Of a stretch of DNA of 64,000 nt, positions 16,148 to 30,117 are shown piece after piece (positions within the stretch are counted from its first letter, which is position 1; the number at the start of each line of letters is the position of its first letter). The notes under the pieces are model-generated. The model had not been told where the DNA came from and did no database searches. It worked only from the letters and a program-made list of their open reading frames with translations. Position numbers and translations under genes: made by a program. The stretch is from Arenimonas composti TR7-09 = DSM 18010 (GTDB taxonomy: Bacteria > Pseudomonadota > Gammaproteobacteria > Xanthomonadales > Xanthomonadaceae): positions 124,001 through 188,000 of the forward strand of contig NZ_AUFF01000002.1 of NCBI RefSeq assembly GCF_000426365.1, written 5' to 3'.

Positions 16148-18319
16148 ATGCCGCACCGACCTTCGACCTTCCGCTACCGCGTCTACAACGGCCTGCTGCT
16201 GCTCGCGGTGGTGGTCGTCATGGGCACCTCGCTGATGTCGCTGCGCGCGACCAGCGAGCTGCAGGCGTCGGTGGAGCGGGCCAGCACCTCGCAGCAGGTG
16301 CTCGAGCAGATCCATCACTTCTGGGGCCTGCTGGGCGACAGCGAGTCGCACGGCCTGCGCTTCACGATCACCGGCAACGAGCAGTACCTCACCGAATTCC
16401 GCCACACCGTGCTCGAGATGGACGCGGCGCTGGACGAGCTGCAGGTGCTCACGGTCGACGATCCGCGGCAGTACGCCCTCGTCGGAACGCTGCGGCGCCT
16501 GCACCGCGAGCGCACCGAATACGGCGGCGTCACCCAGCAGCTGCGCCTGCGCGCGCTGCGCGGCGACGCCGCGGCGGGTGCCGAGGTGGAGGCGCGCATC
16601 CGCAGCGGGCGCGGGGCGCGCTTCCTGATCGAGATGAAGGAGGCCCGCGACGAGCTCGTGCGCGACGAGAACGCGCGCCTGGCCGAACGCAACGCATCGC
16701 GCAACCAGATGATCCAGCAGAACTGGGCGACGGTGCTGGTGGCCAACTGCCTGGCGCTGGTCGCCGGCCTGGTCGGCTATTCGTCGACCCGGCGCCTGCA
16801 GCGGCGGGCGCAGGAGGCCTATCGCGCCGAACTCCAGGCCGAGCAGGCGCGCCGCTCCAGCCACGACAAGTCGGTGTTCCTGGCCAGCATGAGCCACGAG
16901 ATCCGCACGCCGATGAACGCGATCTTCGGCTTCGCCAACCTGCTCGCCGACTCGGTCACCGACCCGACCCAGGCCGAGCACGTCGCCGCGATCCGCAAGA
17001 GCGGGCAGGCCCTGCTGTCGCTGATCAACGACGTGCTCGACCTGTCGAAGATGGAGGCGGGCAAGCTCGAACTGCGCGAGGAACCGACCGACATCCGCGA
17101 GATCGTCGACCAGATCCTGACGATGTTCCGGCAGAACGCCTCGGCCCGCGGCATCGACCTGCGCGCCGAATTCGAGGGTCCGGTCGACCGGCCGCTGCTG
17201 GTGGACCCGGTGCGCCTACGCCAGGTGCTGATCAACCTCGTCAGCAACGCGGTCAAGTACACCGAGCGCGGCAGCGTCACCGTGCGCATCGTCTGCGTGC
17301 CCAGGAACGGCGTGTCGGCGGGCGGCGACGAGAGCGAATGCGACCTGCGCGCCGAGGTGGTCGACACCGGCACCGGCATCCCGGCGCACCAGCTCGGGGT
17401 GATCTTCGAGCCCTTCGAGCAGGGCGACAGCCCCGACGGCAAGTCGCGCGAGGGCACCGGTCTCGGCCTGAGCATCGCCCGCCGTCTGGCCGCGCTGATG
17501 GGTGGCTCGCTGCACGCCGAGAGCACGCTCGGCAGCGGCTCCCGCTTCGTGCTCGACGCCCCGGGCCGCAGGATCTGCGCCGATCCGGTGACGCAGCAGC
17601 CGACCTCCGGCCCGGCGATCGATTTCGACCGCTTGCCACCGCTGGACGTGCTGGTGGTGGACGACGTCGCCTGGAACCGCGATCTGGTCAGCGCCTACCT
17701 GCGCGGCAGCCACCACCGCGTGCGCCAGGCCGAAGATGGCCAGTTCGCCGTCGACGAGGTGCGCCGCGCGCGGCCCGATGTCGTGCTGATGGACCTGCGG
17801 ATGCCGCGGATGTCGGGCGAGCAGGCCCTGCTGCAGATCAAGTCGGACCCCGAGAGCGCGCTGGTGCCGGTGATCGCGGTCACGGCCTCGAGCATGAGCA
17901 ACGACGAGAACTGGCTGCGCAACCGCTTCGACGGCTACGTGCGCAAGCCGTTCTCGCGCGCCGACCTGTTCACCGCGCTGGCCGCGCATTTCGACGCGGC
18001 CCCGGCGCCGGGCACGTCGCCTGCCGTGGCCGAGGCGCCGGAACCGCTGTCGCCACTGCCAGGCCGCCCCGATCCGAAGGCGCTGGCGGCGCTGCAGCGC
18101 CTGTATGCCGACGAGGTGCCCTCGCTGCGGGCGCACCTGCGCATGCGCGAGGCCGGTGCCCTCGCCGAACGCCTCGCGCGCCTCGCCGCGGACCTCGACT
18201 GGCCGCGCCTGCAGGCGCACGCCGGGGAGCTCGCCGCCGCGGTCGAGGCCTTCGATGTCCCCGCGATCCGCAAACTGCTGGATGATTGCCCCATGCCCGA
18301 GAATCCCACCGATGAATGA
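16148..18319 (+). CDS. Hybrid sensor kinase with CHASE3-like sensor
   Basis: 723 aa; ATG 16148 after GGGAG. TM1 at about 12-32, a helical CHASE3-like periplasmic domain (about 33-190), TM2 at about 194-212. The HisKA box has H250 in SMSHEIRTPMNAI. ATPase boxes are LINLVSNAVKY, DTGTGIP and GTGLGLSIARRL. A receiver domain has D549 (VVLMDLRMPRMSG). The C-terminal 110 residues resemble a degenerate phosphotransfer region without a clear HxxKG motif. Its end overlaps the next gene by 8 bases. It may signal to the AlgB-type regulator or to the receiver-kinase that follows. Confidence 0.9.
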   Translation: MPHRPSTFRYRVYNGLLLLAVVVVMGTSLMSLRATSELQASVERASTSQQVLEQIHHFWGLLGDSESHGLRFTITGNEQYLTEFRHTVLEMDAALDELQVLTVDDPRQYALVGTLRRLHRERTEYGGVTQQLRLRALRGDAAAGAEVEARIRSGRGARFLIEMKEARDELVRDENARLAERNASRNQMIQQNWATVLVANCLALVAGLVGYSSTRRLQRRAQEAYRAELQAEQARRSSHDKSVFLASMSHEIRTPMNAIFGFANLLADSVTDPTQAEHVAAIRKSGQALLSLINDVLDLSKMEAGKLELREEPTDIREIVDQILTMFRQNASARGIDLRAEFEGPVDRPLLVDPVRLRQVLINLVSNAVKYTERGSVTVRIVCVPRNGVSAGGDESECDLRAEVVDTGTGIPAHQLGVIFEPFEQGDSPDGKSREGTGLGLSIARRLAALMGGSLHAESTLGSGSRFVLDAPGRRICADPVTQQPTSGPAIDFDRLPPLDVLVVDDVAWNRDLVSAYLRGSHHRVRQAEDGQFAVDEVRRARPDVVLMDLRMPRMSGEQALLQIKSDPESALVPVIAVTASSMSNDENWLRNRFDGYVRKPFSRADLFTALAAHFDAAPAPGTSPAVAEAPEPLSPLPGRPDPKALAALQRLYADEVPSLRAHLRMREAGALAERLARLAADLDWPRLQAHAGELAAAVEAFDVPAIRKLLDDCPMPENPTDE

Positions 18320-19394
18320 TTCCAGCCACGCCCTGGTGATGGTCGTCGACGACCAGGAAGCCAACGTCCGCACCGTCGGCGCCCTGCTGAGCCGGGCGGG
18401 CTTCGACGTCGCGCCCTGCTACAGCGGCGTCGAGGCGCTCGACCGGATCGCCGTCGGTCCGCCGGACCTGGTGCTGCTCGACATGCGCATGCCGGTGATG
18501 GACGGCTTCCAGGTGCTGGAGAAACTGCGTGCCGACCCGGCGACGCGCGAGTTGCCGGTGATCTTCCTGACCGCCGACCACGAGCGCGAATCGCTGGTGC
18601 GCGCCTTCGGCGCCGGCGCGGTGGACTACGTCACCAAACCCTTCGTGCCGGAGGAACTGCTGGCGCGGGTGCGCACCCATGCGGAACTGAAGATCGCCCG
18701 CGACCGCCTGTCGCGCCTGGCCGAGGAACGCCAGCAGAGCCTGGAGCTGATCGCCCACGACCTGCGCAACCACTTCACGAACGTGCTGTTCGCCTGCGAC
18801 CTGATGTCCAACGAAAGCGTCGCCGCGACCCAGCGCGCACGCCTCGGCGAGAACATCCGCAGTTCGGCCAACGCCGGCCTGATGTTCCTGCAGGCCGTGC
18901 TCGACCAGGCCGCCGACGAGGCGCGCGGCGTCACGATGGAACCGCTGCCGGCGGCGCAGATGGCGCAGGAGTGCATCGACGCCTTCAGCGAGCACGCGGC
19001 CGGCAAGGCGATGCGCTTCGACCTGCGCCTCGACCGCCACCTGCTGGTCAAGGGCCAGCGCGCCGCCGTGCAGCATGTACTGCAGAACCTCGTCTCGAAC
19101 GCGATCAAGTACGCGCCGCGCGAGAGCGTGATCACCGTCGCCGCCGTGCGCCACGAGGAGTTCGGACGCCTGCAGGTGATGGACCAGGGGCCCGGCGTCT
19201 CCAGCACCGACCAGGCGATGCTGTTCCGCCGCTTCGCGCCGCTGTCGAGCCAGACCACCGGCGGCGAGAAGTCGACCGGCCTGGGCCTGAGCCTCGCGAA
19301 GCAGAAGGCGAGGGCGATGGGCGGTGACCTCTGGTACGACCCGCGGCCCGGCGGCGGCGCGTGTTTCACCCTCGAGCTGCCGCGGGTCGACTGA
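18312..19394 (+). CDS. Receiver-histidine kinase fusion
   Basis: 360 aa, no membrane segment. Receiver domain 1-125 with D57 (LVLLDMRMPVMDG) and K109, then a linker and a kinase core with H149 in LIAHDLRNHFTN, N box QNLVSNAIKYAP, G1 DQGPGVSS and G2 STGLGLSLAKQKA. The receiver-first order is typical of orphan or relay kinases that accept a phosphate from a hybrid kinase. It overlaps the hybrid kinase gene and probably forms a relay with it. No output domain is present. Confidence 0.9.
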   Translation: MNDSSHALVMVVDDQEANVRTVGALLSRAGFDVAPCYSGVEALDRIAVGPPDLVLLDMRMPVMDGFQVLEKLRADPATRELPVIFLTADHERESLVRAFGAGAVDYVTKPFVPEELLARVRTHAELKIARDRLSRLAEERQQSLELIAHDLRNHFTNVLFACDLMSNESVAATQRARLGENIRSSANAGLMFLQAVLDQAADEARGVTMEPLPAAQMAQECIDAFSEHAAGKAMRFDLRLDRHLLVKGQRAAVQHVLQNLVSNAIKYAPRESVITVAAVRHEEFGRLQVMDQGPGVSSTDQAMLFRRFAPLSSQTTGGEKSTGLGLSLAKQKARAMGGDLWYDPRPGGGACFTLELPRVD

Positions 19395-19415
19395 CCTCTC
19401 GCGACCCGGCAAGAA

Positions 19416-19440
19416 GAAGGGCGCCGCAAAGGCGCCCTTC
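19416..19440 (-). terminator. Terminator between kinase and entericidin genes
   Basis: Perfect 10-bp stem gaagggcgcc/ggcgcccttc with GCAAA loop. On the minus strand it is followed by TTCTTCTT, so it should terminate the DUF1328-entericidin transcript; it may also act weakly on the convergent kinase transcript. Confidence 0.7.
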
Positions 19441-19465
19441 CGGAAGCGATCGAAGAAGCGCGCGA

Positions 19466-19615
19466 TCAGGTGCGGGTGTCTTCGGCCGCTTCCTCGATGC
19501 CCTCGCCGACTTCCTGGATGTCGCGGCCGGCGCCTTCGACGGTGTGGCAGGCGCCGAGGACGAACATCAGGCCGAGCAGGGTGGCGACGCCGAGCGTGCG
19601 GGTGGTCTTGTTCAT
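19466..19615 (-). CDS. Entericidin-like small lipoprotein
   Basis: 49 aa. Start supported by AGGAG 7 bases upstream. A signal peptide ends in a lipobox LGAC (C23), so the mature lipopeptide of about 27 residues would be lipid-anchored. The mature part, CHTVEGAGRDIQEVGEGIEE, matches the entericidin A/B (EcnAB) pattern. EcnB of E. coli is a stationary-phase and osmotically induced toxic lipoprotein; no EcnA-like antitoxin is adjacent. It lies 42 bases after the DUF1328 gene and is probably co-transcribed with it. Confidence 0.85.
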   Translation of the reverse strand: MNKTTRTLGVATLLGLMFVLGACHTVEGAGRDIQEVGEGIEEAAEDTRT

Positions 19616-19657
19616 GGGGGTGCTCCTGGTGACGTGGTGGGGCGGGGGAAGCGCGGT

Positions 19658-19819
19658 TCAGACGGCCTTGCGGCCGGTGAACAGCGAGATGACGAACAGC
19701 ACGAGGAAGACGAAGAACAGGATCTTGGCGATGCCCGCGGCGGCGCCGGCGATGCCGCCGAAGCCGAGGATCGCGGCGATGATCGCGACGACGAGGAAGA
19801 TGATCGTGTAGGACAGCAT
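19658..19819 (-). CDS. DUF1328 (YtjA-like) small membrane protein
   Basis: 53 aa with two hydrophobic helices separated by [14 protein letters not shown], the DUF1328 signature. AGGAGA precedes the ATG. YtjA-type proteins are inner-membrane proteins associated with stress and stationary phase; mechanism unknown. A sigma-54-like element lies about 50 bases upstream. It precedes the entericidin gene. Confidence 0.87.
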
Positions 19820-19868
19820 GGCGTTCTCCTGGAATGCGCAAGCGGAAGGCCGCGCTCACCAGGACGGT

Positions 19869-19884
19869 TACAAGTTCCATGCCA
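19869..19884 (-). promoter_or_regulatory. Sigma-54-like promoter for DUF1328-entericidin
   Basis: Minus strand TGGCATG-GAAC-TTGTA fits TGGCAYG-N4-TTGC except that the -12 GC is GT. GG-to-GT spacing is 10 bases, as required. The predicted start would give a leader of about 40 bases. Confidence 0.45.
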
Positions 19885-20080
19885 AGCACGAAACGTGCGC
19901 CGCGCCTCGTTTTCGCATCGGCGCCGCGCGAACGGAAAGGCGAAACGCAACTCCGCCGCCCCTCGCCACCATGCAGCCTGCAATCCCTCGCCGGCTCCGG
20001 ACCCCGCGCTCTCACACGCCTTTCGCGCGCAGCGCGCGCAACCACTCGTTACTCGTTCCTCTCCCCTCTTCTCATCCTGT

Positions 20081-20096
20081 TGGCACGGGTCTTGCG
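20081..20096 (+). promoter_or_regulatory. Consensus sigma-54 promoter for the lipoprotein gene
   Basis: TGGCACG-GGTC-TTGCG matches the RpoN consensus TGGCACG-N4-TTGC at every conserved base, with the required 10 bases between GG and GC. Transcription would start near 20107, about 55 bases before the lipoprotein ATG. The AlgB-type activator at 14152 is the nearest known kind of partner. Confidence 0.78.
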
Positions 20097-20160
20097 AGCG
20101 TTCTCGCATCGCCGACGCAAGCCGCGTCCGCGAGTCCCCACACCACTGGAGTCCCCCACC

Positions 20161-20616
20161 ATGAAGACCCCGATCATTTCCGCCCTCGCTTTCGCCCTGA
20201 CCCTGTCGCTGGGCGCCTGCAAGCCCGAGTCCCCGGCCGAAGTCCAGGAGGACATGGCCGAAGCACGCGCCGACGCCGCACGCGAGATCGCCGACGAGCG
20301 CGAAGAACTGAACGACGCGATGCGCGACGCCAACGAGGAGATCGCCGACGAGTCCGTGCAGGGTGACCTGGACGGCCTGGCCGAGGCGCGCGCCGACGGC
20401 ACCGAGGCGACCGCCGAAGAGCGCTACGACCTGCGCGTCGCCGAGGCCGAGGGCGTGCGCGACATCGAGAAGGAGCGCTGCGACGGCCTGGCCGACGGCC
20501 AGCGCGGTCCGTGCAACGACGCCGCCGATGCGGCCTTCGACATGGCGAAGGCGGCCGCGAAGGCCGAACTCGACGCGGCCCAGCAGAACGCCGACGCGAT
20601 CCGCGACTCGAACTGA
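20161..20616 (+). CDS. Charged coiled-coil lipoprotein
   Basis: 151 aa. Signal peptide with lipobox LGAC (C20). The mature part is almost entirely Ala/Glu/Asp/Arg-rich, strongly helical, with a heptad-like pattern and two Cys residues in the sequence ERCDGLADGQRGPCND that could form a disulfide. No known family is recognised. Export and lipidation are clear; function unknown. It has a consensus sigma-54 promoter upstream, which suggests stress- or nutrient-regulated expression. Confidence 0.8.
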   Translation: MKTPIISALAFALTLSLGACKPESPAEVQEDMAEARADAAREIADEREELNDAMRDANEEIADESVQGDLDGLAEARADGTEATAEERYDLRVAEAEGVRDIEKERCDGLADGQRGPCNDAADAAFDMAKAAAKAELDAAQQNADAIRDSN

Positions 20617-20654
20617 CCGTCGTGCCGCCCCGCCCCCGCCGGCGCGGCGGCAGC

Positions 20655-20711
20655 GGAAAACCCGGTTTTCCCGAGGTCCGACGGACCCGTTCCCGCCCGG
20701 AACGGGTCCGT
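20655..20711 (+). terminator. Paired hairpins after the lipoprotein gene
   Basis: A short ggaaaacc/ggttttcc palindrome (20655-20671) is followed by a perfect 13-bp stem acggacccgttcc/ggaacgggtccgt (20681-20711). There is no long U tract, so termination efficiency is uncertain, but the position directly after the gene fits. Confidence 0.55.
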
Positions 20712-20757
20712 TCCCGTTGGAAGGCGAAAAAACCCGCGAAAAAACGCCCTTGCGTAC

Positions 20758-20786
20758 TTGGCGGGCACGCGCAGTTGCCCTACATT
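20758..20786 (+). promoter_or_regulatory. Sigma-70-type promoter for the HU-like gene
   Basis: TTGGCG (20758-20763), 17-base spacer, TACATT (20781-20786). Both boxes match consensus at four positions. It lies 61 bases before the start codon and is preceded by A-rich stretches (gaaaaaacccgcgaaaaaac) that could act as an UP-like or curved element. Confidence 0.5.
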
Positions 20787-20846
20787 CGCCCTGCCGGCCC
20801 CGCCCGGACACCCAATCACCCAACGAGCGACACGGGAAAACGAAGA

Positions 20847-21215
20847 ATGGCTACCAAGAAGAAAGTTGCTGCGAAGAAGGCCGCCCCGAAGGCCGCCGCC
20901 AAGCCGATCAAGGAAGCGCTGAGCAAGTCGGGCCTGGTGGCGCACATCGCCGAAGGCACCGGCGTCGCGGCGAAGGACGTCCGCGCCGTGCTCGCTTCGC
21001 TCGAGAGCGCCGTGCACGCCTCGATCAGCAAGAAGGGCGCCGGCCAGTTCACCCTGCCGGGCCTGCTGAAGATCACCGCCGTCAACGTGCCGGCCAAGCC
21101 GAAGCGCAAGGGCATCAACCCGTTCACCAAGGAAGAGCAGTGGTTCGCCGCCAAGCCGGCCTCGGTGAAGGTCAAGGTGCGCCCGCTGAAGAAGCTGAAG
21201 GACGCCGCGGCCTGA
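20847..21215 (+). CDS. HU-family DNA-binding protein with Lys/Ala-rich tail
   Basis: 122 aa. The first 20 residues are a basic extension (ATKKKVAAKKAAPKAAAKP) unlike standard 90-residue HU. The rest is an HU/IHF fold: KEALSKSGLVAHIAEGTGV, then FTLPGLLKITAVNVPAKPKRKGI, where the beta-arm Pro-containing segment is shortened and altered. Such extended HU-like proteins occur in xanthomonads and bind DNA through both parts. The usual HU Arg-Asn-Pro arm tip is not conserved, so it is a divergent member. Monocistronic, with its own promoter and terminator. Confidence 0.85.
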   Translation: MATKKKVAAKKAAPKAAAKPIKEALSKSGLVAHIAEGTGVAAKDVRAVLASLESAVHASISKKGAGQFTLPGLLKITAVNVPAKPKRKGINPFTKEEQWFAAKPASVKVKVRPLKKLKDAAA

Positions 21216-21242
21216 TCGCCGCTGCAATTCCTGTGTGCCCGG

Positions 21243-21270
21243 AGCGGGACGATCGCGAGATCGTCCCGTT
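21243..21270 (+). terminator. Terminator after the HU-like gene
   Basis: Perfect 10-bp stem cgggacgatc/gatcgtcccg with GCGA tetraloop, extended by a G-U and an A-T pair and followed by ttctgcttt. It lies between convergent genes and may serve both. Confidence 0.7.
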
Positions 21271-21276
21271 CTGCTT

Positions 21277-21780
21277 TCAGGGCGTCGCGTAGACGCTCAG
21301 GCGCTGTTCGCCGATCTCGCGTTCGCCCAGCGACACCATGCCGAGCTTTTCGAGCAGCCTGCAGGAAGCGTCGTTTCCGGGGCTGACGATCGCCAGCAGC
21401 CGGTCCATCGCCAGCGCCGAGCGCGCATGCGCCAGCGTCGCCGCGGCCGCCTCGAGCGCGAACCCGCGCCCGCGGAAACGCGGCAGCCAGGCATAGCCGA
21501 GGTCCGGCGCCTCGAGCGTGTCGCGGCGGATCAGCCCGCAGATCCCGGCGGGCTCGCCGGTTTCCAGCAGCTCGCAGAGCCACAGTCCGTGGCCGTGACG
21601 GGCATAGCTGGCCTGCGGTCCGTCGCCGACATAGGCGCGCGCGCTGTCGAGGTCGCGCACGCCGCGGTCGCCGATGTGGCGCAGGAAATCCGGATCGGTC
21701 AGCAGCTCGAGCACGAACGGCGCATCGTCGGCGACCAGTTCGCGCAGGCGCAGGCGCGGCGTGCGCAGGATTTCCTTCAA
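21277..21780 (-). CDS. GNAT N-acetyltransferase (RimJ/RimL type)
   Basis: 167 aa. Opening TPRLRLRELVADDAPFV is typical of RimJ/RimL-like GNATs; the acetyl-CoA loop appears as PRFRGRGFALEAAAATL, and the C-terminal CRLLEKLGM is a common GNAT element. The start ATG overlaps the stop of the GGDEF gene (ATGA), so it is translationally coupled. It is the last gene of the minus-strand run that starts at 26524. Substrate unknown. Confidence 0.88.
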   Translation of the reverse strand: MKEILRTPRLRLRELVADDAPFVLELLTDPDFLRHIGDRGVRDLDSARAYVGDGPQASYARHGHGLWLCELLETGEPAGICGLIRRDTLEAPDLGYAWLPRFRGRGFALEAAAATLAHARSALAMDRLLAIVSPGNDASCRLLEKLGMVSLGEREIGEQRLSVYATP

Positions 21781-23561
21781 GGCGGGGACATTCCGTCGAG
21801 GTCCGGAGTGAACACGGCGACGCGGTCACGGCCGCCGCGCTTGGCCGCGTACATCGCCGCATCGGCGCTGGCCAGCAGCTTGTTGAAGTCGAAGCCGGCG
21901 CGCAGGGTGTCGGCCACCCCGAAACTGCCGGAGATGCGGAAGTCGCGGCCGGTCGACTGCGTGTCGATCCGGTGCAGGGCCTCGCGGCATTTCTCGGCGA
22001 GCACGATGCCCTCCGCCGCGGTGGCGCCCGGCAGCAGCACCGCGAACTCCTCGCCGCCGATGCGCCCGAGCAGGTCGGCGCGGCGGATGCAGCCGCGACA
22101 GGCGTCCGCGACCTGGCGCAGCACCCAGTCGCCGACCCCGTGCCCGAAGCGGTCGTTGATCGACTTGAACTCGTCCAGGTCGAACATCACCATCGCCACC
22201 GCCTCGCCGTCGCGCTGGCAGCGGTCGAGCGTCAGTTCGGCGCTGCGGGTGAAGTGGTGGCGGTTGCTCGAGCGCGTCAGCGCGTCGAGCTCGGCCATGC
22301 GCCGGAACACCATCTGCGTGCGCTTGGTCTTCCACGCCCAGTAGACGATGACCGTCAGCAGCACCAGCAGTAGCGCGACCAGCAGCTGGGTGTTGCGCGC
22401 CGCCTGCTGCGCGACCTTCTGCTCGAGCTGCAGCAGCCGGTTCTGGTCGTCGAGGCGCTGGATCGTCCGGTTCTTCTCCTCGGTCTCCTGGCGCACCGCC
22501 TGGAAGGCGAGTTCGCGCGCCTTCACTGCGTCGAGATAGGCCTTGTCCGCCTGCGCGTAGCGGCGGTAGTGGTCGAACGCAGCGGCGAAATCGCCGCGTC
22601 GTTCCGCGACCCGGTACAGCGTTTCGTGCGCCTGCACCAGCGGCAGCGAGAACGCCATCTCCGAGCTGCGCGCGAGCGCCTCGCGGGCGTGCTGCGTCGC
22701 CCTGGCGTCGTCGCCGTTCTCGAAATACAGGCGGGCGAGCAGGGAATGCACCTCGCCGATCAGGCGCGGATAGCGGGTGCCCTCGATCGCCGCCAGGTTG
22801 TCCTCGAGGATCGCCATCGCCTCGGCACGGCCGCCCTGCTGCTCGTGCACGCGCGCGAGCAGGCTGCGCGAGAAGCTGGTGACGATGGTCTCGCCGAGCG
22901 CGTCGCAGGCGGCGATCGTTTCCTCGATCTCGGCCGGCGACGGTGGCCGGATCACGACGTCCGGCTCGGAGGCGAGGAAGTTCTGGTATTCGGCCTCGAG
23001 TTTCTGCTGGCCGGCGAAGCAGTGCGACCGCGGGTCGCGGCTCGCCACCAGCACGCGGTCGGCGTAATGGCTGGCGAGCGCGAACTGGCCGATCTGGGTG
23101 TACAGCGCGGAAGCCGCGAACCAGGCATGGCTGCGCAGTTCCGGGTCGGGGACGCGTTCGACCAGTTCCAGCGTGCGATCGAGCTGGCGCAGGCCCTCGG
23201 CGAAATCGCGGGTCGCCGCCAGCGAATTGACCGCGAGCGCGCCGGCGCGGAGGCGGATGCCGGGATCGTCGCTGGCCTCGAACAGGGTCCGCGCCTGCAC
23301 GATCGCGTCGTCGAAGCGGCCGGAGTAGGCGAGCTCGTAGGCGCGCAGGTACTGCAGCTGCTCGAGCTGGTCGGCGGTGGCGCTGGCGGTGAGGGCTTCG
23401 ACCTGGCGCAGGGTCGCACTGAATTCGCGCGGGTCGGAGCTGCGCAGCGCCTCGGCGCGATCGAGCAGCGCCTGCAGCGGTTCAGCGGAAGACGGCGGTA
23501 CGACCGCCGCCGCCGAGGCGGCGGCGATCGCGAGGGCGAGCGCGATTCCGGTGACCTTCAC
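21777..23561 (-). CDS. TPR-containing membrane diguanylate cyclase (GGDEF)
   Basis: 594 aa. Signal peptide (about 1-26), then a periplasmic tetratricopeptide-like region (30-370), a coiled coil (about 365-400), one transmembrane helix (LLVALLLVLLTVIVYWAW) and a C-terminal GGDEF domain with GGEEF at 502-506. The catalytic motif is intact. The upstream Arg of an inhibitory RxxD site is not obvious. It makes c-di-GMP from two GTP. It starts 9 bases after the borosin precursor gene, so expression is probably linked. A GAF-HD-GYP gene with the opposing activity lies 3 kb away. Confidence 0.92.
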   Translation of the reverse strand: MKVTGIALALAIAAASAAAVVPPSSAEPLQALLDRAEALRSSDPREFSATLRQVEALTASATADQLEQLQYLRAYELAYSGRFDDAIVQARTLFEASDDPGIRLRAGALAVNSLAATRDFAEGLRQLDRTLELVERVPDPELRSHAWFAASALYTQIGQFALASHYADRVLVASRDPRSHCFAGQQKLEAEYQNFLASEPDVVIRPPSPAEIEETIAACDALGETIVTSFSRSLLARVHEQQGGRAEAMAILEDNLAAIEGTRYPRLIGEVHSLLARLYFENGDDARATQHAREALARSSEMAFSLPLVQAHETLYRVAERRGDFAAAFDHYRRYAQADKAYLDAVKARELAFQAVRQETEEKNRTIQRLDDQNRLLQLEQKVAQQAARNTQLLVALLLVLLTVIVYWAWKTKRTQMVFRRMAELDALTRSSNRHHFTRSAELTLDRCQRDGEAVAMVMFDLDEFKSINDRFGHGVGDWVLRQVADACRGCIRRADLLGRIGGEEFAVLLPGATAAEGIVLAEKCREALHRIDTQSTGRDFRISGSFGVADTLRAGFDFNKLLASADAAMYAAKRGGRDRVAVFTPDLDGMSPP

Positions 23562-23570
23562 CGTGGTCCG

Positions 23571-23849
23571 TCAGTGACGGATTTCCGCTTCCTTCTCTTC
23601 GCCGGGCTCGTCGGTCGGCTGGTCTTCCCCGTCCTTCTGCGGTTCGTCGTCGGCCGGGAACAGCGCGCAGATCATCTTCGGGCGGCCGCCGAGGCCGGCC
23701 GCGATCGTCGCGGCATCGCCGGACAGCAGCGCCATCCGCACGTCGTCGTCGAGCCCGGCGGCCTTCGCGGCGGCGGTGAACTCCTCGCCCTGCGCCGGCA
23801 GCACGGCGTCGCGGCCCATCGCTTCCAGGAATGCGATCACATTCGACAT
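23571..23849 (-). CDS. Split-borosin precursor protein (putative RiPP substrate)
   Basis: 92 aa, preceded by AAGGGGA. Residues 1-55 are helical with the pattern FLEAMGRDA, AAGLDDDVRMALLSGD and IAAGLG, which resembles the borosin-binding domain of split precursors such as Shewanella SonA. A short hydrophobic segment MICALFPADDEP (about 59-70) is the best candidate for the N-methylated core. The last 20 residues are acidic and polar. The gene lies 40 bases after the matching methyltransferase, in the same order as sonM-sonA. The family call is from recall of that system, not from a search; the position of methylation is inference. Confidence 0.75.
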   Translation of the reverse strand: MSNVIAFLEAMGRDAVLPAQGEEFTAAAKAAGLDDDVRMALLSGDAATIAAGLGGRPKMICALFPADDEPQKDGEDQPTDEPGEEKEAEIRH

Positions 23850-23889
23850 CAGGTTTTCCCCTTCGTTGGTCCAGCGTGGTGGAGCGGAC

Positions 23890-24687
23890 TCACCCGGCCG
23901 CGTCGAGCGCGGCGAGGCGGGCGAGGATGTCCGGATTCTGCTGCAGTGGCCGCGCCGGCGGAAGCACCAGCGTCGACGCGAGGCTCAGCGCGGCCTGCGG
24001 CAGGTCGCGCAACGCCACCTGTTCGATCCGTGGGCGCTGGATCGGCAGCGTCGCCGCCTCGTAGATCGTGCACGGATGGTCCAGCGGGTAGTCGGCGGCG
24101 AGCACGTCGACGAGTACCTGCAGGTAGGCGGGGCCGGTGGCGAAGCGGCGGAAGCCGCGGTCGCCGGCGATCGCCGGCTGCCAGACCACCAGCCAGGCGC
24201 CCGGGTCCACCCGGCGCCGGTAGAACATCATCTGGCTGGCCTCGAAGTGCTGGCAGCCGGTCCGCCCGGGATCGATGCCGAGGTCGGCGTACAGGCAGTC
24301 CTCGGCGGAGACGCCCGGTTCCATCACCGCCTCGTAGCCCTCCGCGCGCGCCTGCTCGACCGCGCGGTGCGGGGCCAGCGCGAACACCCCGGGATGGCCG
24401 TAGAAGGCGCCGCAGACGCGTTGGCCGGCGCGCACTTCGGCGAGCATCACGCCGACCATCTCGCGGTAGGTGTCCTGGCGCGACTTCTCGCCGGATTCGC
24501 GGCCGTACAGCGGCTGCAGGCTGCGCACGTCCGGGTGCATCTCCTGCACCCACAGCTCGACCACCGGGTCGCTGACCGCGACGAACACGACGTCGGCGTT
24601 CTCGATGCGGCTGCGCGCCCGCGGCGTGATGTGGGCGCCGAGCGTCATGCCGACGCCGACGATCGCCAGGCTTCCCTTCGACTGCAT
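23890..24687 (-). CDS. Split-borosin alpha-N-methyltransferase (SonM-like)
   Basis: 265 aa from ATG 24687, preceded by GGGGA; ATGs at 24699 and 24717 are possible but extend past the family start. It belongs to the tetrapyrrole-methylase fold used by borosin backbone N-methyltransferases: LAIVGVGM near the start, RQDTY (70-74), YGHPGVFA (96-103), EPGVSAEDCLYADLGIDPG (123-141), QHFEASQMMFY (146-156) and WQPAIAGD. These match SonM closely as remembered. It uses S-adenosylmethionine to methylate amide nitrogens of a peptide. No precursor domain is fused, so it is the split type; its substrate is encoded by the next gene. A cobalamin-pathway role is less likely given this partner. Confidence 0.85.
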   Translation of the reverse strand: MQSKGSLAIVGVGMTLGAHITPRARSRIENADVVFVAVSDPVVELWVQEMHPDVRSLQPLYGRESGEKSRQDTYREMVGVMLAEVRAGQRVCGAFYGHPGVFALAPHRAVEQARAEGYEAVMEPGVSAEDCLYADLGIDPGRTGCQHFEASQMMFYRRRVDPGAWLVVWQPAIAGDRGFRRFATGPAYLQVLVDVLAADYPLDHPCTIYEAATLPIQRPRIEQVALRDLPQAALSLASTLVLPPARPLQQNPDILARLAALDAAG

Positions 24688-24730
24688 GCGTGTCCCCATC
24701 CCGGAGCCGGCGAGCATAACCGCTGCGCGC

Positions 24731-25255
24731 TCAGCCGCGGTCGTGATTCCCGCGCGGGTAATGCCAGCGCCAGCGGCCGTCGTCGCCGTCGTCGACGCGG
24801 GTGAAGCCGGTCTTGCGCATCAGCCCGGCGGCGAGGGCGTGGTCGGCGGCGTGCGCGGTGTGCAGCCGGTCCAGGCCGAGGTCGTCGAAGGCATGCGGCA
24901 GCAGGGTCGTGATGGCCTCGGCGGCCCAGCCACGGTTCTGCGCATCCGGCGGCAGCATCACCCCGAGTTCGGCGCCGATCCGGCCCGCGGCATCGGCACG
25001 GGCATCCCAGTGCAGGCCGATCAGGCCGATCGCCGGACAACGCCGCGGCTGGATCACCCAGAAGCGCCGCCGTGGCGGCATCTCCCGGTTGAGCCGGCAG
25101 GCGGCGGCGAAGCTGCGCTCCAGGCTGGCGGCGTCGCCGGCAGCGCTGACGAAGCGCATCGTCGCCGGGTCGCCGTACAGGCGTGCATACAGGCCGCCGT
25201 CGCCGGCATCGAGCAGGCGCAGGCGCAGGCGCGGGCCCTCGAGGAAGGCGGCCAC
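24731..25255 (-). CDS. GNAT N-acetyltransferase in the borosin block
   Basis: 174 aa. Features of RimJ/RimL-type acetyltransferases: GPRLRLRLLDAGDGGLYARL, GAELGVMLPPDAQNRGWAAE with the acetyl-CoA loop (here QNRGWA), and GLMRKTGF near the end. It lies between the aspartic protease gene (3-base gap) and the methyltransferase gene (43-base gap), all on one strand. It might acetylate the processed peptide's N-terminus or be an unrelated housekeeping enzyme; only context supports the former. Confidence 0.85.
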   Translation of the reverse strand: MAAFLEGPRLRLRLLDAGDGGLYARLYGDPATMRFVSAAGDAASLERSFAAACRLNREMPPRRRFWVIQPRRCPAIGLIGLHWDARADAAGRIGAELGVMLPPDAQNRGWAAEAITTLLPHAFDDLGLDRLHTAHAADHALAAGLMRKTGFTRVDDGDDGRWRWHYPRGNHDRG

Positions 25256-25258
25256 GGC

Positions 25259-26524
25259 TCAGTCGGCGCGTGCGGCGGCGAAACGCACGACGCCGAGGCC
25301 ATCGGCGGCGCGGCGGTCGAACACCGCGTAACGGCCGGCGAACAGCGGCAGCCCCAGGATCGACTGCTTCGGGAAATGCGCCAGCTGGCGCATCAGCAGG
25401 CACATCGACTGGCCGTGCGCGAGCGCGTTGCGCGGCCAGTACGCGGCGCCGTGCACGCGCAGCACCGTGTCGCCACCGCCGGGCGCTTCCAGGCGCAGGC
25501 GCAGGTCGGGCCAGGCATGCGGGTCGATGCGTTCGTTGGCGACGCCGCCGTCGTGCGCCAGCGCCTGCTGCGCCTCGGCGACCAGTGACGGGAAGCGCGG
25601 ATCGTGGCGCCCCAGCGCCGCGAGCACCGCGTCGTACACCGAGGCCTCCAGCACGAGGAAGCTGCTGCCGGTGTCGAGCAGGGCGTTGCTGTAGCGGCTG
25701 GCGAGGTCGGCGGGGTCGAGCGGCGGCACCGGGATCGGCGCCTCGCTGCCGACCTGCACCGCGCGCAGGTTCGCGTTGTAGTAGAGGTCGTGGAGGATGC
25801 GCACGTCGGCGAAGCCGCCGCGGTACAGGTGCTGCTGTTCGGCGCCGCCGCCGGCGACGAGGGCGCCGCGGTTCAGCGGGTCGGCCGCCTGCGCGTGCAG
25901 CGACACGCCGTCGCCGGCGACGTGGACCACGGCGCGCCCGGCGAGGAAGCCGAAGCGGTCGCGGACGACGTCGTGTTCCTCGAGCGCGCTGAGCGCCGGC
26001 ACCAGGCTCGTGCGTGGCTGCCGGTGCAGGAAGTCGCGGAAGTTCGCCAGGTCGAGCGCGTGTCCCGAGTCGAAAGGCCACGGCCAGGTCAGCGGCGGAT
26101 CGACGCCGTGCGCCTGCAGCAGCGTCGTCATGTCGTAGGCCGGGTCGAGGTCGCGGTAGGCGAGGCCGAGGATGCCGTCGGCGTGCCGGAACGGCGGATC
26201 GGCCGATTCGACCAGCGCGAACGCGGCGTCGTCGATCGTGCGCGCGTGCCGACCGCTGCCGAAGCCCAGCCAGGAGCGCAGCACCGGCCCGGCCCAGGCG
26301 CCGCCGCCGTAGCTGATCTCCTGCGCCAGCGCGGTCGGCGCCAGCGCCCGGTCGCGCTCCGGCGCGTAGCAGCGCGGCAGCACCGCCAGCGAGCTGCTGC
26401 CGGTGTCCAGCAGCACGTTCGCCGACCGCGCCTCGCTGCCGAGCCGGAGCTCGACGCTGTAGCCGCCCTGCGCGTACGCGAGCGTGGTCGCCAGCTCGAC
26501 CTGCGGCTGTGCTGCCTGCGTCAT
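25259..26524 (-). CDS. Pepsin-like (A1) aspartic protease, cytoplasmic
   Basis: 421 aa; ATG 26524 follows GGGGAGA. Two DTGSS catalytic motifs (40-44 and 284-288) give the bilobed pepsin architecture. DGILGLAY (116-123) is the conserved pepsin psi-loop region, and the C-terminal ILGLPLFAGRYAVFDRR matches the family end. No signal peptide or propeptide is visible, as in the bacterial shewasins. Pepsin-type proteases are rare in bacteria. It is the first gene of the minus-strand run containing the borosin pair and is 3 bases from the next gene. A role in precursor maturation is inference. Confidence 0.88.
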   Translation of the reverse strand: MTQAAQPQVELATTLAYAQGGYSVELRLGSEARSANVLLDTGSSSLAVLPRCYAPERDRALAPTALAQEISYGGGAWAGPVLRSWLGFGSGRHARTIDDAAFALVESADPPFRHADGILGLAYRDLDPAYDMTTLLQAHGVDPPLTWPWPFDSGHALDLANFRDFLHRQPRTSLVPALSALEEHDVVRDRFGFLAGRAVVHVAGDGVSLHAQAADPLNRGALVAGGGAEQQHLYRGGFADVRILHDLYYNANLRAVQVGSEAPIPVPPLDPADLASRYSNALLDTGSSFLVLEASVYDAVLAALGRHDPRFPSLVAEAQQALAHDGGVANERIDPHAWPDLRLRLEAPGGGDTVLRVHGAAYWPRNALAHGQSMCLLMRQLAHFPKQSILGLPLFAGRYAVFDRRAADGLGVVRFAAARAD

Positions 26525-26639
26525 CGGATCTCCCCTCTCCCCGGCGCGCACGATACCCGCGCGGCGGTGACGAAGGGTAATTGCGTGGCGCCGGGATTGG
26601 CGGCAGTGTGACGCCGTCCCCGATCCGTCGCCGCCGCCC

Positions 26640-28256
26640 GTGACCCGCGAATCCGACATCCTCGAGCGCCTTTACACCCTCAACGCGATCGGCGTCGCGC
26701 TGTCGACCGAACGCGACCTGCCGACCCTGCTCGAGCGCATCCTCGAGGCCGCGCGCGAGTTCACCCGCGCCGACGGCGGTACGCTCTATCGGGTCGAAGG
26801 CGACACCCTGGTCTTCGAGGTGCTGCGCAACGACACCCTCGGCGCGCGCATGGGCGGCCGCAGCGGCAGCCCGATCACCTTCGCGCCGATCCGCATGTAC
26901 GGCGACGACGGCGCCGGCAACCATTCGATGGTGGTGGTGCACGCGGCGCTGACCGGCGAGACCGTCAACATCGCCGACGCCTACACCGCCGAGGGTTACG
27001 ACTTCAGCGGCACCCGTGCCTTCGACGCCAAGACCGGCTACCGCTCGCAGTCGTTCCTGACCGTGCCGATGAAGGACCACGACGGCCGGGTGATCGGCGT
27101 GCTGCAGCTGATCAACGCCCGCGACGAGTCCGGCACCGTCCAGGCCTTCGACGAGCACGTGCAGCACCTGGTGGAGTCGCTGGCCTCGCAGGCGGCGATC
27201 GCGATCAACAACCGCCAGCTGATCGTCCAGCTCGAGCAACTGTTCGAGGCGCTGATCAACCTGATCAACACCGCGATCGACGAGAAGTCGCCCTACACGG
27301 GTGGCCACTGCGAACGCGTGCCGGCGCTGACGACCCTGCTCGCCGATGCGGTCGCGCGCACCGGCGACGGCCCGCTCGCCGACTTCACGATGACCGACGC
27401 CGACCGCTACGAGCTGAAGATCGCCGGCCTGCTGCACGACTGCGGCAAGATCACCACGCCGGTGCACGTGGTCGACAAGGCGACCAAGCTGCAGACGCTG
27501 TTCGACCGCATCGCCCTGGTCGACACCCGTTTCGAGGTGCTGCTGCGCGACGCCGAGATCGCCCACCTGAAGGGCGAGCTCGACGCCGACGCCTACGCGG
27601 CGCGTTGCGCCCAGCTTCGCGCCGACCGCGAGGCGGTGCGCGCGGCCAACACCGGCGGCGAGTTCATGAGCGACGAGAAGATCGCGGCGATGAAGCGAAT
27701 CGCCGGCTACCGCTGGCGCGGCCCGGACGGCGCCGAGCGCGACTTCCTCGACGCCGACGAGCTCGAGAACCTGTGCATCCGCCGCGGCACGCTCAACGAG
27801 CAGGAGCGGCAGATCATCAACCACCACATCACGATGACGATCCGCCTGCTCGAGCAGCTGCCGTGGCCGGCGCACCTGCGCAACGTGCCCGAATACGCCG
27901 GCGGCCACCACGAGCGCATGGACGGCAAGGGCTATCCGCGCGGCCTGACCCGCGAGCAGATGAGCGTGCAGGCGCGGGTGATGGGCATCGCCGACATCTT
28001 CGAGGCGCTGACGGCCAGCGACCGGCCCTACAAGCCCGGCAAGACCCTCAGCGAATCGCTGACGATCCTCGGCCGGATGAAGCTCGACCACCACGTCGAT
28101 CCGGACCTGTTCGACATCTTCATCCGCGAGAAGGTCTGGCTCGAATACGCGCGGCGCTTCCTGCCGGAATCGCAGATCGACGCGATCGACTGGACGAAGA
28201 TCCCCGGCGTCTCGCCCGAGCTCGCCGCTGAACTCATGCGCGGCGACGCCCCTTGA
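26640..28256 (+). CDS. GAF-HD-GYP cyclic-di-GMP phosphodiesterase
   Basis: 538 aa with a GTG start at 26640. GAF domain at about 10-190 (SQSFLTVPMKDHDGRVIGVL). The HD-GYP domain has H266-D267 (LLHDCGK), HHERMDGKGYP with GYP at 431-433, and the downstream ADIFEALTASDRPYK. A charged insertion (about 285-380) separates HD from the rest. Metal ligands look intact, so it should hydrolyse c-di-GMP. It diverges from the aspartic-protease/borosin run, with 115 bases between the starts. Confidence 0.92.
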   Translation: MTRESDILERLYTLNAIGVALSTERDLPTLLERILEAAREFTRADGGTLYRVEGDTLVFEVLRNDTLGARMGGRSGSPITFAPIRMYGDDGAGNHSMVVVHAALTGETVNIADAYTAEGYDFSGTRAFDAKTGYRSQSFLTVPMKDHDGRVIGVLQLINARDESGTVQAFDEHVQHLVESLASQAAIAINNRQLIVQLEQLFEALINLINTAIDEKSPYTGGHCERVPALTTLLADAVARTGDGPLADFTMTDADRYELKIAGLLHDCGKITTPVHVVDKATKLQTLFDRIALVDTRFEVLLRDAEIAHLKGELDADAYAARCAQLRADREAVRAANTGGEFMSDEKIAAMKRIAGYRWRGPDGAERDFLDADELENLCIRRGTLNEQERQIINHHITMTIRLLEQLPWPAHLRNVPEYAGGHHERMDGKGYPRGLTREQMSVQARVMGIADIFEALTASDRPYKPGKTLSESLTILGRMKLDHHVDPDLFDIFIREKVWLEYARRFLPESQIDAIDWTKIPGVSPELAAELMRGDAP

Positions 28257-28275
28257 CACCCGGGGTCAACAACTG

Positions 28276-28384
28276 GGGTTAACAACTGGGGTCAGATTCC
28301 TGCGTTAAGACCGCAGATGATTGCTCGCGCGCACCAGGGGTTTCAGCGGTCTTAACGCAGGAATCTGACCCCAGTTGTTAACCC
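28276..28384. repeat. Near-perfect 109-bp palindromic element
   Basis: 28278-28314 and 28346-28382 are a perfect 37-bp inverted repeat, with a 31-base central loop and further imperfect pairing outside. The arms contain aactggggtcagattcctgcg; a second copy of caactgggg lies just outside the left arm. It sits between convergent genes. It looks like a REP/MITE-type repeat and may also act as a bidirectional terminator. No transposase is nearby. Confidence 0.75.
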
Positions 28385-28389
28385 AGTTG

Positions 28390-30117
28390 TCAAGGCTTGG
28401 GGCGTTCGAGCCACCAGGCCAGGGCGGCCAGCAGCAGCCAGGCCAGCAGCCAGGGCCAGCGCGGGCCCGGTGTCGTCGTCGCGACCGCAGGCGCCGTGGC
28501 GGGGGCATTCGCGGCCAGTGCCAGGGTCGCTTCGCGGCGTTCGCTGGCCGCGAGGCCGGGCAGCTCATCCTCGCCGAGCACGTGGAAGGACGCCGTCGCG
28601 TCATCCGTCTGCAGCGCATGCCAGCCGGCGGCCACCGGCCAGAATCCCGCGCAGCCCGCGGCCGTCGCATCGGCCAGCAGCGCGGTCTCGCCGCCGTCGG
28701 GGGCGATGATCCGCGCCTCCGCGGGCAAATCGCAGAACACGGCACGCTCGCCGACGCGCGCGAAGACGGGCACCGCCGGCAACGCCCCGCCACGCGCCCG
28801 CGCCAGCGTCGTGACCGCGTGCGCCCACAGCTCGCCGTGCATGTCGCCGTGACCGGCGAGCTGCAGACGGAAACTCGCGCCGAGATTCCACAGCGCGACG
28901 CGCCCGCGCCCCTCGGCCCGCCATAGGGCGAGGGGTTCGCCCGCGGCGTCGGCCTGCAACAAGGCGCCATCGGCAGCGGCCAGGCGCAGTGGCCGCCGCG
29001 TCGGCTTCACCGCAGCGGCGCCGGCTCCGGGCAGATCGACCTCGCGTGGGAGGGCCGCCGGCATGAGCTCGAAACCCCAGTCGCGCAGGCCCGCGCGCTC
29101 GCTCTCCGTCGGCTCCGCGGTGAGCCGCAGCAGCACGCCGAGGCCGTCGCGTACCGCCGCCCGCAGCGTCTCGCGCCCGCCCGGGCCGAGCGCCGACCAG
29201 CGGCGGTCGTCGAGGATCAGCAGGTCGATCTCGGCGAGCTGGGCCGCGGTCGGGCTGCCGGCGAAATCGCCGACTTCCACACCGCCGCCGAGGCTGGCCT
29301 GGCGCCCGAGCGCGAGCCCGGCGTCGAGCGCCCAGCGGCGCAGGTACTTGCTCTCGGGGTCGATGCCGCCGGCGAGCACGAGCAGGCGCAGCGGGGCGCC
29401 GGCCTCGACCTGCAGCGGCAGGTTCGCCGTCTCGACGACCTCACCGCCGGCATCGCGCCGGCGCAGCGTCCAGTCGGAGTGCCCCGGGAAGCCGGCCGTC
29501 GCGGTCAGCGCGAATTCGCCGGTGGCATCGAGCGTTCGGCTCGCCACCACCGCACCGGCGGGATCGCGCAGTTCGAGCGTCCCGCCGGCGCCCCCCTCGA
29601 CGCGCCCGCGGACCGTCCAGCGCCGGCCCGCCGCGATCCGCGCCGGCATCCGCAGTTCGACCAGCCCGGCCGGCAGCGCCGCCGGTTCGAAGTGCAGCGG
29701 CAGGCCCGCGGCGGCATCGCGGTCGCGGGCCGGCAGGCCGCTGCCGACGATGCGCAGCGCGCGCGCCTCCGGGTGGCGACGCAGGGCGCTGCCGAGGTCG
29801 GGCACGTGCAGCGCGGCGGGAAAGGCCGCGGCCGCCTCCGGCAGCGCCACGAGCCGTTCGCCGTCGCCGGCCGCCAGCGACGCCGGCGCGCCGGCGGTCG
29901 CGACCACCAGGCGCAGCGGCGCCACGGCGTTCGGCGGCGGCATCAGCACCGGCCACAGCAGTGCCGCCAGCGCGAACGGCGCCAGCACGAGCAGCAGGCG
30001 CCGCGGCAGACCGTCACCGCGCCGCCGTGCCGACCACCCGGCCCGCAGCGCCGCCAGCGAGGCGATCGCCGCGAGCAGCCCGGCGAGCAGCGACGGCGTG
30101 AGCACCAGCTCCCTCAT
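28390..30117 (-). CDS. Large membrane protein of the MoxR-DUF58 cluster
   Basis: 575 aa from ATG 30117, which overlaps the stop of the gene upstream (ATGA). Hydrophobic segments near residues 5-28, 38-62 and the C-terminal RWPWLLAWLLLAALAWWL anchor it. The middle has a class I glutamine-amidotransferase-like fold (LRLLVLAGGIDPES ... EIDLLILDDRRW) with no catalytic Cys-His pair evident. Such proteins end many MoxR/DUF58/BatA clusters. Probably an inner-membrane component of that system; function unknown. Confidence 0.75.
   Translation of the reverse strand: MRELVLTPSLLAGLLAAIASLAALRAGWSARRRGDGLPRRLLLVLAPFALAALLWPVLMPPPNAVAPLRLVVATAGAPASLAAGDGERLVALPEAAAAFPAALHVPDLGSALRRHPEARALRIVGSGLPARDRDAAAGLPLHFEPAALPAGLVELRMPARIAAGRRWTVRGRVEGGAGGTLELRDPAGAVVASRTLDATGEFALTATAGFPGHSDWTLRRRDAGGEVVETANLPLQVEAGAPLRLLVLAGGIDPESKYLRRWALDAGLALGRQASLGGGVEVGDFAGSPTAAQLAEIDLLILDDRRWSALGPGGRETLRAAVRDGLGVLLRLTAEPTESERAGLRDWGFELMPAALPREVDLPGAGAAAVKPTRRPLRLAAADGALLQADAAGEPLALWRAEGRGRVALWNLGASFRLQLAGHGDMHGELWAHAVTTLARARGGALPAVPVFARVGERAVFCDLPAEARIIAPDGGETALLADATAAGCAGFWPVAAGWHALQTDDATASFHVLGEDELPGLAASERREATLALAANAPATAPAVATTTPGPRWPWLLAWLLLAALAWWLERPKP

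Follow-up and report, generated by a model that had tools for sequence, protein, structure and literature searches.

The closest described systems are those of Shewanella. SonM and SonA form a type IV split borosin of Shewanella oneidensis, in which Miller et al. link residues Y58, R67 and Y71 of SonM to catalysis (PMC8429565), and SahM/SahA activity has been described in Shewanella sp. HN-41 (PMC11285071). A GGDEF domain is also named within a borosin architecture in the Figure 1 legend of PMC11395268, which states neither the borosin type nor the role of the domain; the cyclase described below differs in that it is encoded separately and has a TPR region predicted to be periplasmic. Among the papers available to us, a search joining borosin and diguanylate cyclase found none.

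We analysed a 64,000-nucleotide stretch of the Arenimonas composti genome, referred to throughout as the window, in which a methyltransferase and a small protein very probably form a genuine split borosin pair, in the same setting as locus L049 of Shewanella sp. HN-41, which we take to be the sah locus. As in SonM-SonA, methyltransferase and precursor are separate, the enzymes are 51% identical, Y58, R67 and Y71 are kept, and a helical binding domain is followed by a putative core. The window precursor differs from SonA in its putative C-x3-P core and its acidic tail, and, unlike the SonA-type loci compared here (the S. oneidensis locus not among them), the window run adds protease and GNAT genes. 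L049 has the same order of protease, GNAT, methyltransferase, precursor and cyclase; its precursor, too, combines a C-x3-P core with an acidic tail, and the L049 enzyme is 58% identical to that of the window. The locus differs in genus and in having no GNAT after the cyclase. A preliminary description of this DNA had already recognized the borosin pair, which the SonM and SonA matches below bear out, but did not describe the conserved neighbourhood.

Organization of the gene run

The minus-strand run comprises, in order, a pepsin-like protease, a GNAT, the methyltransferase, the precursor, a TPR diguanylate cyclase and a second GNAT (Table 1). Using the start codons of the ORF lister, and a protease start chosen by hand, the genes are separated by 3, 43, 40 and 9 nt and then overlap by 4 nt; the methyltransferase and precursor are thus separate ORFs with 40 nt between them. 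The six-gene run looks like an operon. We found no sigma-70 promoters or terminators in 20800-27000 (0.2 and 2.2 expected by chance), so gene spacing is the sole basis of the operon call. There was likewise no c-di-GMP riboswitch or other Rfam RNA at the gathering threshold within 18000-32000, and no exporter gene was noticed within the run.

A divergent gene, probably outside the operon, encodes a GAF/HD protein with HD-GYP-like motifs, a probable c-di-GMP phosphodiesterase. Homologues of this protein are found near the locus in L031, L033, L034 and L035. Enzymes that make and probably break c-di-GMP therefore lie close together at the window locus.

Table 1. Features of the window locus, with coordinates counted from the first nucleotide of the window
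Feature	Coordinates	Strand	Evidence
Second GNAT, overlapping the cyclase gene by 4 nt	21277..21780	minus	PF13302 E 9.3e-27
Diguanylate cyclase	21777..23561	minus	PF00990 E 1.3e-39; TPR matches
Precursor, SonA/SahA-like, 92 aa	23571..23849	minus	Profile; fold prediction
Precursor residues 71-92, acidic tail	23574..23639	minus	Sequence comparison with Shewanella SonA-type relatives
Precursor residues 58-70 KMICALFPADDEP, putative core, C-x3-P format	23640..23678	minus	Sequence; core comparison; tandem-core precursor L107
Precursor residues 1-53, helical borosin-binding domain (leader)	23691..23849	minus	Alignment to SonA residues 1-53/60; predicted helices
Split-borosin alpha-N-methyltransferase, SonM/SahM relative	23890..24687	minus	Pfam; PDB match; alignment
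GNAT acetyltransferase (Acetyltransf_3), candidate N-terminal cap enzyme	24731..25255	minus	PF13302 E 1.7e-20
Pepsin-like aspartic protease (family A1, Pfam Asp), 421 aa	25259..26524	minus	PF00026; alignment; start chosen inside ORF 26659-25259
GAF/HD protein, HD-GYP-like motifs by eye	26640..28256	plus	PF13487; PF01590

The methyltransferase is a relative of SonM

The methyltransferase ORF lies on the minus strand where the preliminary description had placed it and contains the motifs YGHPGVFA, EPGVSAEDCLYADLGIDPG and QHFEASQMMFY that were cited for it. Counted from the ATG at 24687 the protein has 265 aa, and an alternative upstream ATG would give 275 aa. The tetrapyrrole-methylase fold proposed at the time agrees with the Pfam match to TP_methylase (E 3.2e-23), and the proposed kinship with SonM is upheld by SonM being the top PDB match (E about 6e-78), with 129 of 252 aligned positions identical (51.2%) and the catalytic residues kept. 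Fused fungal OphMA-type borosin enzymes rank next (E 6e-47 to 1e-44). SonM Y58, R67 and Y71 correspond to Y61, R70 and Y74 of the window enzyme, and each of the 88 aligned sequences (87 loci and SonM) has all three.

These results bear directly on the alternative of a tetrapyrrole-type methylase next to a small ORF with no relation to it. The Pfam match is generic and would suit such an enzyme, and there is some NCBIfam likeness to corrin methylases, albeit weak and with every score far under the cut-off. Against this, the top corrin enzyme in the PDB reaches only E 2e-4, and on that ranking the identity was dropped; the invariance of the SonM catalytic residues argues the same way, and a profile of the small protein finds SonA first in the PDB. 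We consider this alternative very improbable.

The small protein belongs to a family of probable SonA-like precursors

The 92-aa ORF is likewise found on the minus strand at the position reported earlier, with AGLDDDVRMALLSGD and MICALFPADDEP both present, and an AAGGGG stretch lies 5' of its ATG. As a single sequence the protein found no PDB relative. A profile of the window precursor and 13 relatives, from which SonA-type rows were excluded, placed seven SonA sequences on top at E 0.013-0.032 (177,635 PDB sequences), and with SonA-type rows included SonA was matched at E 3e-12. In the PDB, the comparison with known split-borosin pairs that had been proposed earlier returned SonM for the enzyme and SonA for the small protein, the latter weakly when SonA-type rows are left out. 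A Nif11-type precursor was rejected, as the Pfam match of 13.2 bits falls below the cut-off of 23.8.

The AlphaFold2 model of the precursor (55 rows, mean pLDDT 78.6) has helices at residues 3-13, 22-30, 35-43 and 46-52 and no regular structure beyond residue 52. These four predicted helices, together with the profile ranking, agree with the earlier view of a helical, SonA-like protein. With this model as query, Foldseek returned SonA chains at ranks 1, 3-7 and 9-11 of 32, with target-normalised TM-scores of 0.58-0.70 and all E values at or above 1. Residues 59-64 form a hydrophobic stretch C-terminal to the binding domain, a format that recurs among relatives; the acidic tail is missing in the Shewanella SonA-type relatives (L053-L059, L061 and L062).

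Of 87 methyltransferase loci, 83 have a homologue by an iterated precursor profile, a count that is not independent as the profile was grown on the same loci, and the precursor is on this ground not a chance ORF. Among 30 loci of the probable Shewanella genus, 12 were matched; of the 18 unmatched loci, all except L153, for which no short ORF is listed in the precursor slot, have a short ORF of 63-84 aa there. These 17 profile-missed ORFs (within L135-L158) have cores like MAIVEPTDP or TLSIYDPTDP and are another precursor subfamily.

One precursor (L107:4498-4836) contains four core-like repeats, each with TPE at its end and three following the pattern YFCxVxTPE, and L044, L063, L073, L081, L096, L101 and L106 each have two or three precursor genes. 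The recurrence of the profile, the repeats and the multi-gene loci match what would be expected of a RiPP precursor family. The genome of L107 (G022) has no cyclase sensor match.

Distribution of the enzyme

The preliminary description had called this class rarely described outside a few genera, which does not fit the spread of the enzyme: the methyltransferase is found in 61 of 149 genomes of the family and, within the probable Shewanella genus, in 52 of 59. Ten of 369 genomes of the class contain it, eight of them at 26-47% identity. Its nearest named relatives are mostly from Arenimonas, with up to 78% identity. A methyltransferase 74% identical to that of the window is found in an Arenimonas-like setting in L032, a contig of a metagenome-assembled genome titled Rhizobium sp., a label that is probably wrong for this bin.

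A TPR diguanylate cyclase accompanies the pair

The cyclase has a signal-peptide-like N-terminus, a predicted periplasmic TPR region, a transmembrane stretch and a GGDEF domain, a layout common to most relatives compared; in the stop-to-stop frame of 597 residues, hydrophobic stretches lie at 6 and 394. The motif reads GGEEF, with an RxxD ahead of it by eye. This is an active-type GGDEF motif, which makes the protein a candidate c-di-GMP producer.

Within 3 kb of the methyltransferase, on the same strand, a TPR sensor is present at 43 of 45 loci in Lysobacteraceae, 34 of 35 in a second set gathered as enzyme relatives, and all 30 in the probable Shewanella genus. The first two sets have at least one genome in common, and the third comprises L130-L159, drawn from 61 enzyme places in that genus. 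A GGDEF match was found in the same frame as the sensor in 43 of 43 Lysobacteraceae cases and 32 of 34 of the second set. GGDEF matches number 45 in the 3.16 Mb host genome, indicative of a dense c-di-GMP network, and from this density we estimate the chance of a GGDEF within 3 kb downstream on the same strand at about 2%. Of 149 genomes of the family 48 have the sensor, and 47 of these also have the methyltransferase; with 14 genomes having the enzyme alone, one the sensor alone and 87 neither, Fisher's test, which ignores phylogeny, gives p 6e-25.

Eleven of the 14 genomes with the enzyme and without a separate sensor have open frames of 842-1005 aa. In five of these, and in a further copy in G097, TPR, GGDEF and methyltransferase occur in one frame (6/6; L114, L115, L116, L118, L119 and L120), with a SonA-like precursor gene close by; a seventh long-frame locus, L117 (459 aa), shows neither. 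In the four fusions checked for order the methyltransferase comes last, after GGDEF, on the predicted cytoplasmic side. In Rheinheimera the order is precursor, cyclase, GNAT, methyltransferase; gene order shifts between genomes and the linkage persists. The HMMs behind these neighbourhood comparisons were built from the loci to which they were applied. At L104 and L107 the borosin pair is present and the sensor is not nearby.

Our advance prediction was that a precursor would lie upstream of those cyclases that are not near a methyltransferase; this held for three of nine. This falls to one of seven (L176) once two possible contig-break cases are set aside, namely L177, an apparent continuation of a methyltransferase contig, and L178, on a 6.2 kb contig. 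At L180 (G147:C3:30000-42000), from a relative of the same genus, a TPR cyclase and a GNAT are present, with no methyltransferase or precursor match. The advance prediction concerning the step from peptide to cyclase thus mostly failed.

We also compared distances between domains by partial Mantel tests, which are liberal on related sequences. Given the enzyme and GGDEF distances, core and sensor distances co-vary over 60 loci across clades (partial r 0.33, p 0.001), with a core-enzyme partial r of -0.02 over the same loci. Within the 33 Lysobacteraceae loci alone the core-sensor value is 0.08 (p 0.13), that of tail and sensor 0.25 (p 0.002), and that of binding domain and sensor 0.20 (p 0.049, marginal). 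These sets exclude loci in which precursor, sensor or methyltransferase occurs more than once or domains are short, as well as L035, L064 and L052.

GNAT acetyltransferases near the pair

A GNAT is found within 1.5 kb of the methyltransferase, on the same strand, at 38 of 45 Lysobacteraceae loci, 17 of 35 loci of the second set and 8 of 30 of the probable Shewanella genus; in most loci of the Lysobacteraceae and second sets it lies upstream, and in the probable Shewanella genus it lies downstream. A single open frame of 473 codons encodes both methyltransferase and GNAT in L131:925-2343 (also L161, the same genome), and in the related L130 they are apart. The shared frame is a natural link between methylation and acetylation activities. 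We found neither GNAT nor protease near the SonA-type loci L053-L059, L061 and L062 or near the cyclase-methyltransferase fusions.

A pepsin-like protease recurs beside the methyltransferase

The longer protease ORF (26659-25259) matches PF00026 at E 7.6e-12. DTG motifs lie at residues 40-42 and 284-286, with D40, G42, D284 and G286 invariant in 11 rows, and no signal peptide or prosegment is evident by eye from the hand-chosen start. The protein resembles shewasins A and D in belonging to family A1, in its two catalytic aspartates and, as far as can be judged by eye, in having no evident signal peptide (PMC4814920). The likeness is one of family, motifs and one short primer match rather than of full-length sequences: in the L049 homologue, KVNLIIDTGSSTL agrees with the stretch of the shewasin D mutagenesis primer except at the Asp reported as changed (PMC4814920). 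Shewasin D is described as mainly cytoplasmic, and shewasins favour Leu, aromatic residues and Asp at P1 (PMC4814920), a preference that would fit a hydrophobic core beside an acidic tail. Their reported acid pH optimum (PMC4814920) is odd for a cytoplasmic processing enzyme and would not easily be reconciled with such a role here.

The protease is present in 10 of 149 genomes of the family and 10 of 59 of the probable Shewanella genus. All 20 copies lie on the methyltransferase strand, directly upstream, the matched stretches being 568-868 bp apart in the family and 84-686 bp in the probable Shewanella genus. Most methyltransferase loci have no protease, and in L045 the homologue is downstream on the opposite strand. 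Fisher's test of protease against enzyme in the probable Shewanella genus gives p 0.25, which is uninformative because the enzyme is present in 52 of the 59; in that genus it is the adjacency that counts as evidence.

Searching 369 genomes of the class with PF00026 matched four and missed the window's own protease, and a profile from an alignment of relatives was therefore used. It found the family in two genomes, the host and G512, whose copy (L181, G512:C2) is the only protease away from a methyltransferase, that of G512 being on another contig. The profile matches one of the four PF00026 loci (L069). The remaining three encode proteins outside this protease family, with no methyltransferase close to them; a link to borosins is therefore not a general property of bacterial pepsin-like proteins.

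Protease presence goes with the format of the core. A C-x3-P core occurs at 8 of 11 protease loci versus 4 of 40 others (p 1e-4), and in another set at 4 of 4 versus 5 of 31 (p 0.0024), both with phylogeny uncontrolled; the cores of loci without protease are mostly C-x4-P or others. The core table omits L064, at a contig end, and L035, which duplicates L072 in precursor, protease frame and gene distances. It has no row for loci without a precursor match, and the C-x4-P core of L095 was scored as 'other', which leaves the 2x2 table unaffected.

On a quick methyltransferase tree, in which 35 of 104 inner branches are open, protease presence changes 13 times, at least seven of them on supported branches, indicating that the protease was gained or lost repeatedly beside the methyltransferase. 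Of the seven supported pairs, when phylogeny is controlled, 3.7 on average show a joint change of protease and core format (median p 0.125), or 4.4 if S or F may replace C, and one opposite pair appears in a few of the 200 pairings (strict count). For this paired test C-x3-P labels were assigned by hand: L113 and L153, where no precursor was found, were entered as lacking C-x3-P, L083 and L085, in which S or F takes the place of C, were counted both ways, L094 was taken from a loose pattern (CVWAP), and L052 was also left out.

What the gene run may do

The SonM match, the catalytic residues, the precursor profile, the fold, the gene spacing and the conserved linkage together make it very likely that the two proteins are a split borosin, type IV-like and of the SahM/SahA type. 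From this and from the neighbouring genes we propose the following chain. The precursor would dock on the methyltransferase dimer via its helical N-terminal domain, and the hydrophobic core around MICALFPADDEP would be N-methylated at its backbone amides. The pepsin homologue, which is probably cytoplasmic, would remove leader and tail while the methylated amides resist cutting, and the GNAT would acetylate the newly exposed N-terminus. The small capped peptide may then act on or through the periplasmic TPR sensor cyclase, whereby peptide output would feed into c-di-GMP signalling.

The steps of this chain differ in strength. Backbone N-methylation of the precursor is predicted with high confidence, and it alone is well supported. 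The pepsin homologue has slightly better than an even chance of being the processing enzyme, and the case for acetylation of the peptide by the GNAT falls somewhat short of even; that the peptide is the ligand of the cyclase sensor seems rather unlikely. That the operon constitutes a complete peptide-signal system, with methylation, pepsin trimming, GNAT capping and TPR-sensor read-out, is rather improbable.

Two other readings accept the borosin pair and differ on its output. The small protein might stay whole, the methylated protein being an effector on the cytoplasmic side of the cyclase with no peptide released. The position of the methyltransferase after GGDEF in four fusions, on the predicted cytoplasmic side, would suit this, as would the SonA-type loci and fusions that have no GNAT or protease nearby and a run in which no exporter gene was noticed. 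Against it, protease and GNAT repeatedly adjoin SahA-type pairs, and the four core-like repeats in L107 are what would be expected if several peptides were released; we regard retention of the whole protein as doubtful.

We are similarly hesitant about the pair making a conventional secreted natural product whose production the cyclase merely times. Miller et al. call split borosins natural product pathways with the product unknown (PMC8429565), and L104 and L107 have the pair without a sensor nearby, both in keeping with this possibility. The absence of a noticed exporter speaks against it, as do the one-frame fusions of cyclase and methyltransferase in six loci, and the near-constant presence of the sensor exceeds what regulation requires. 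On balance we find a secreted product unlikely.

Implications for split borosins and bacterial pepsins

According to the 2021 paper in which split borosins were defined, none had a final product (PMC8429565), and the 2016 shewasin D paper leaves the in vivo function of that protease still to be understood (PMC4814920). The small number of known mature borosins is put down to the lack of a specific peptidase (PMC11395268). The interest of the window locus lies in its neighbours, the protease, GNAT and cyclase, whose recurrence hints at peptide excision and a purpose for the peptide. A natural pair of protease and methyltransferase would help in making N-methylated peptides. The conserved neighbourhood offers split borosins and shewasins a testable substrate, processing step and output, c-di-GMP; if true, the peptide-signal reading would give a job to both shewasin-type bacterial pepsins and split borosins.
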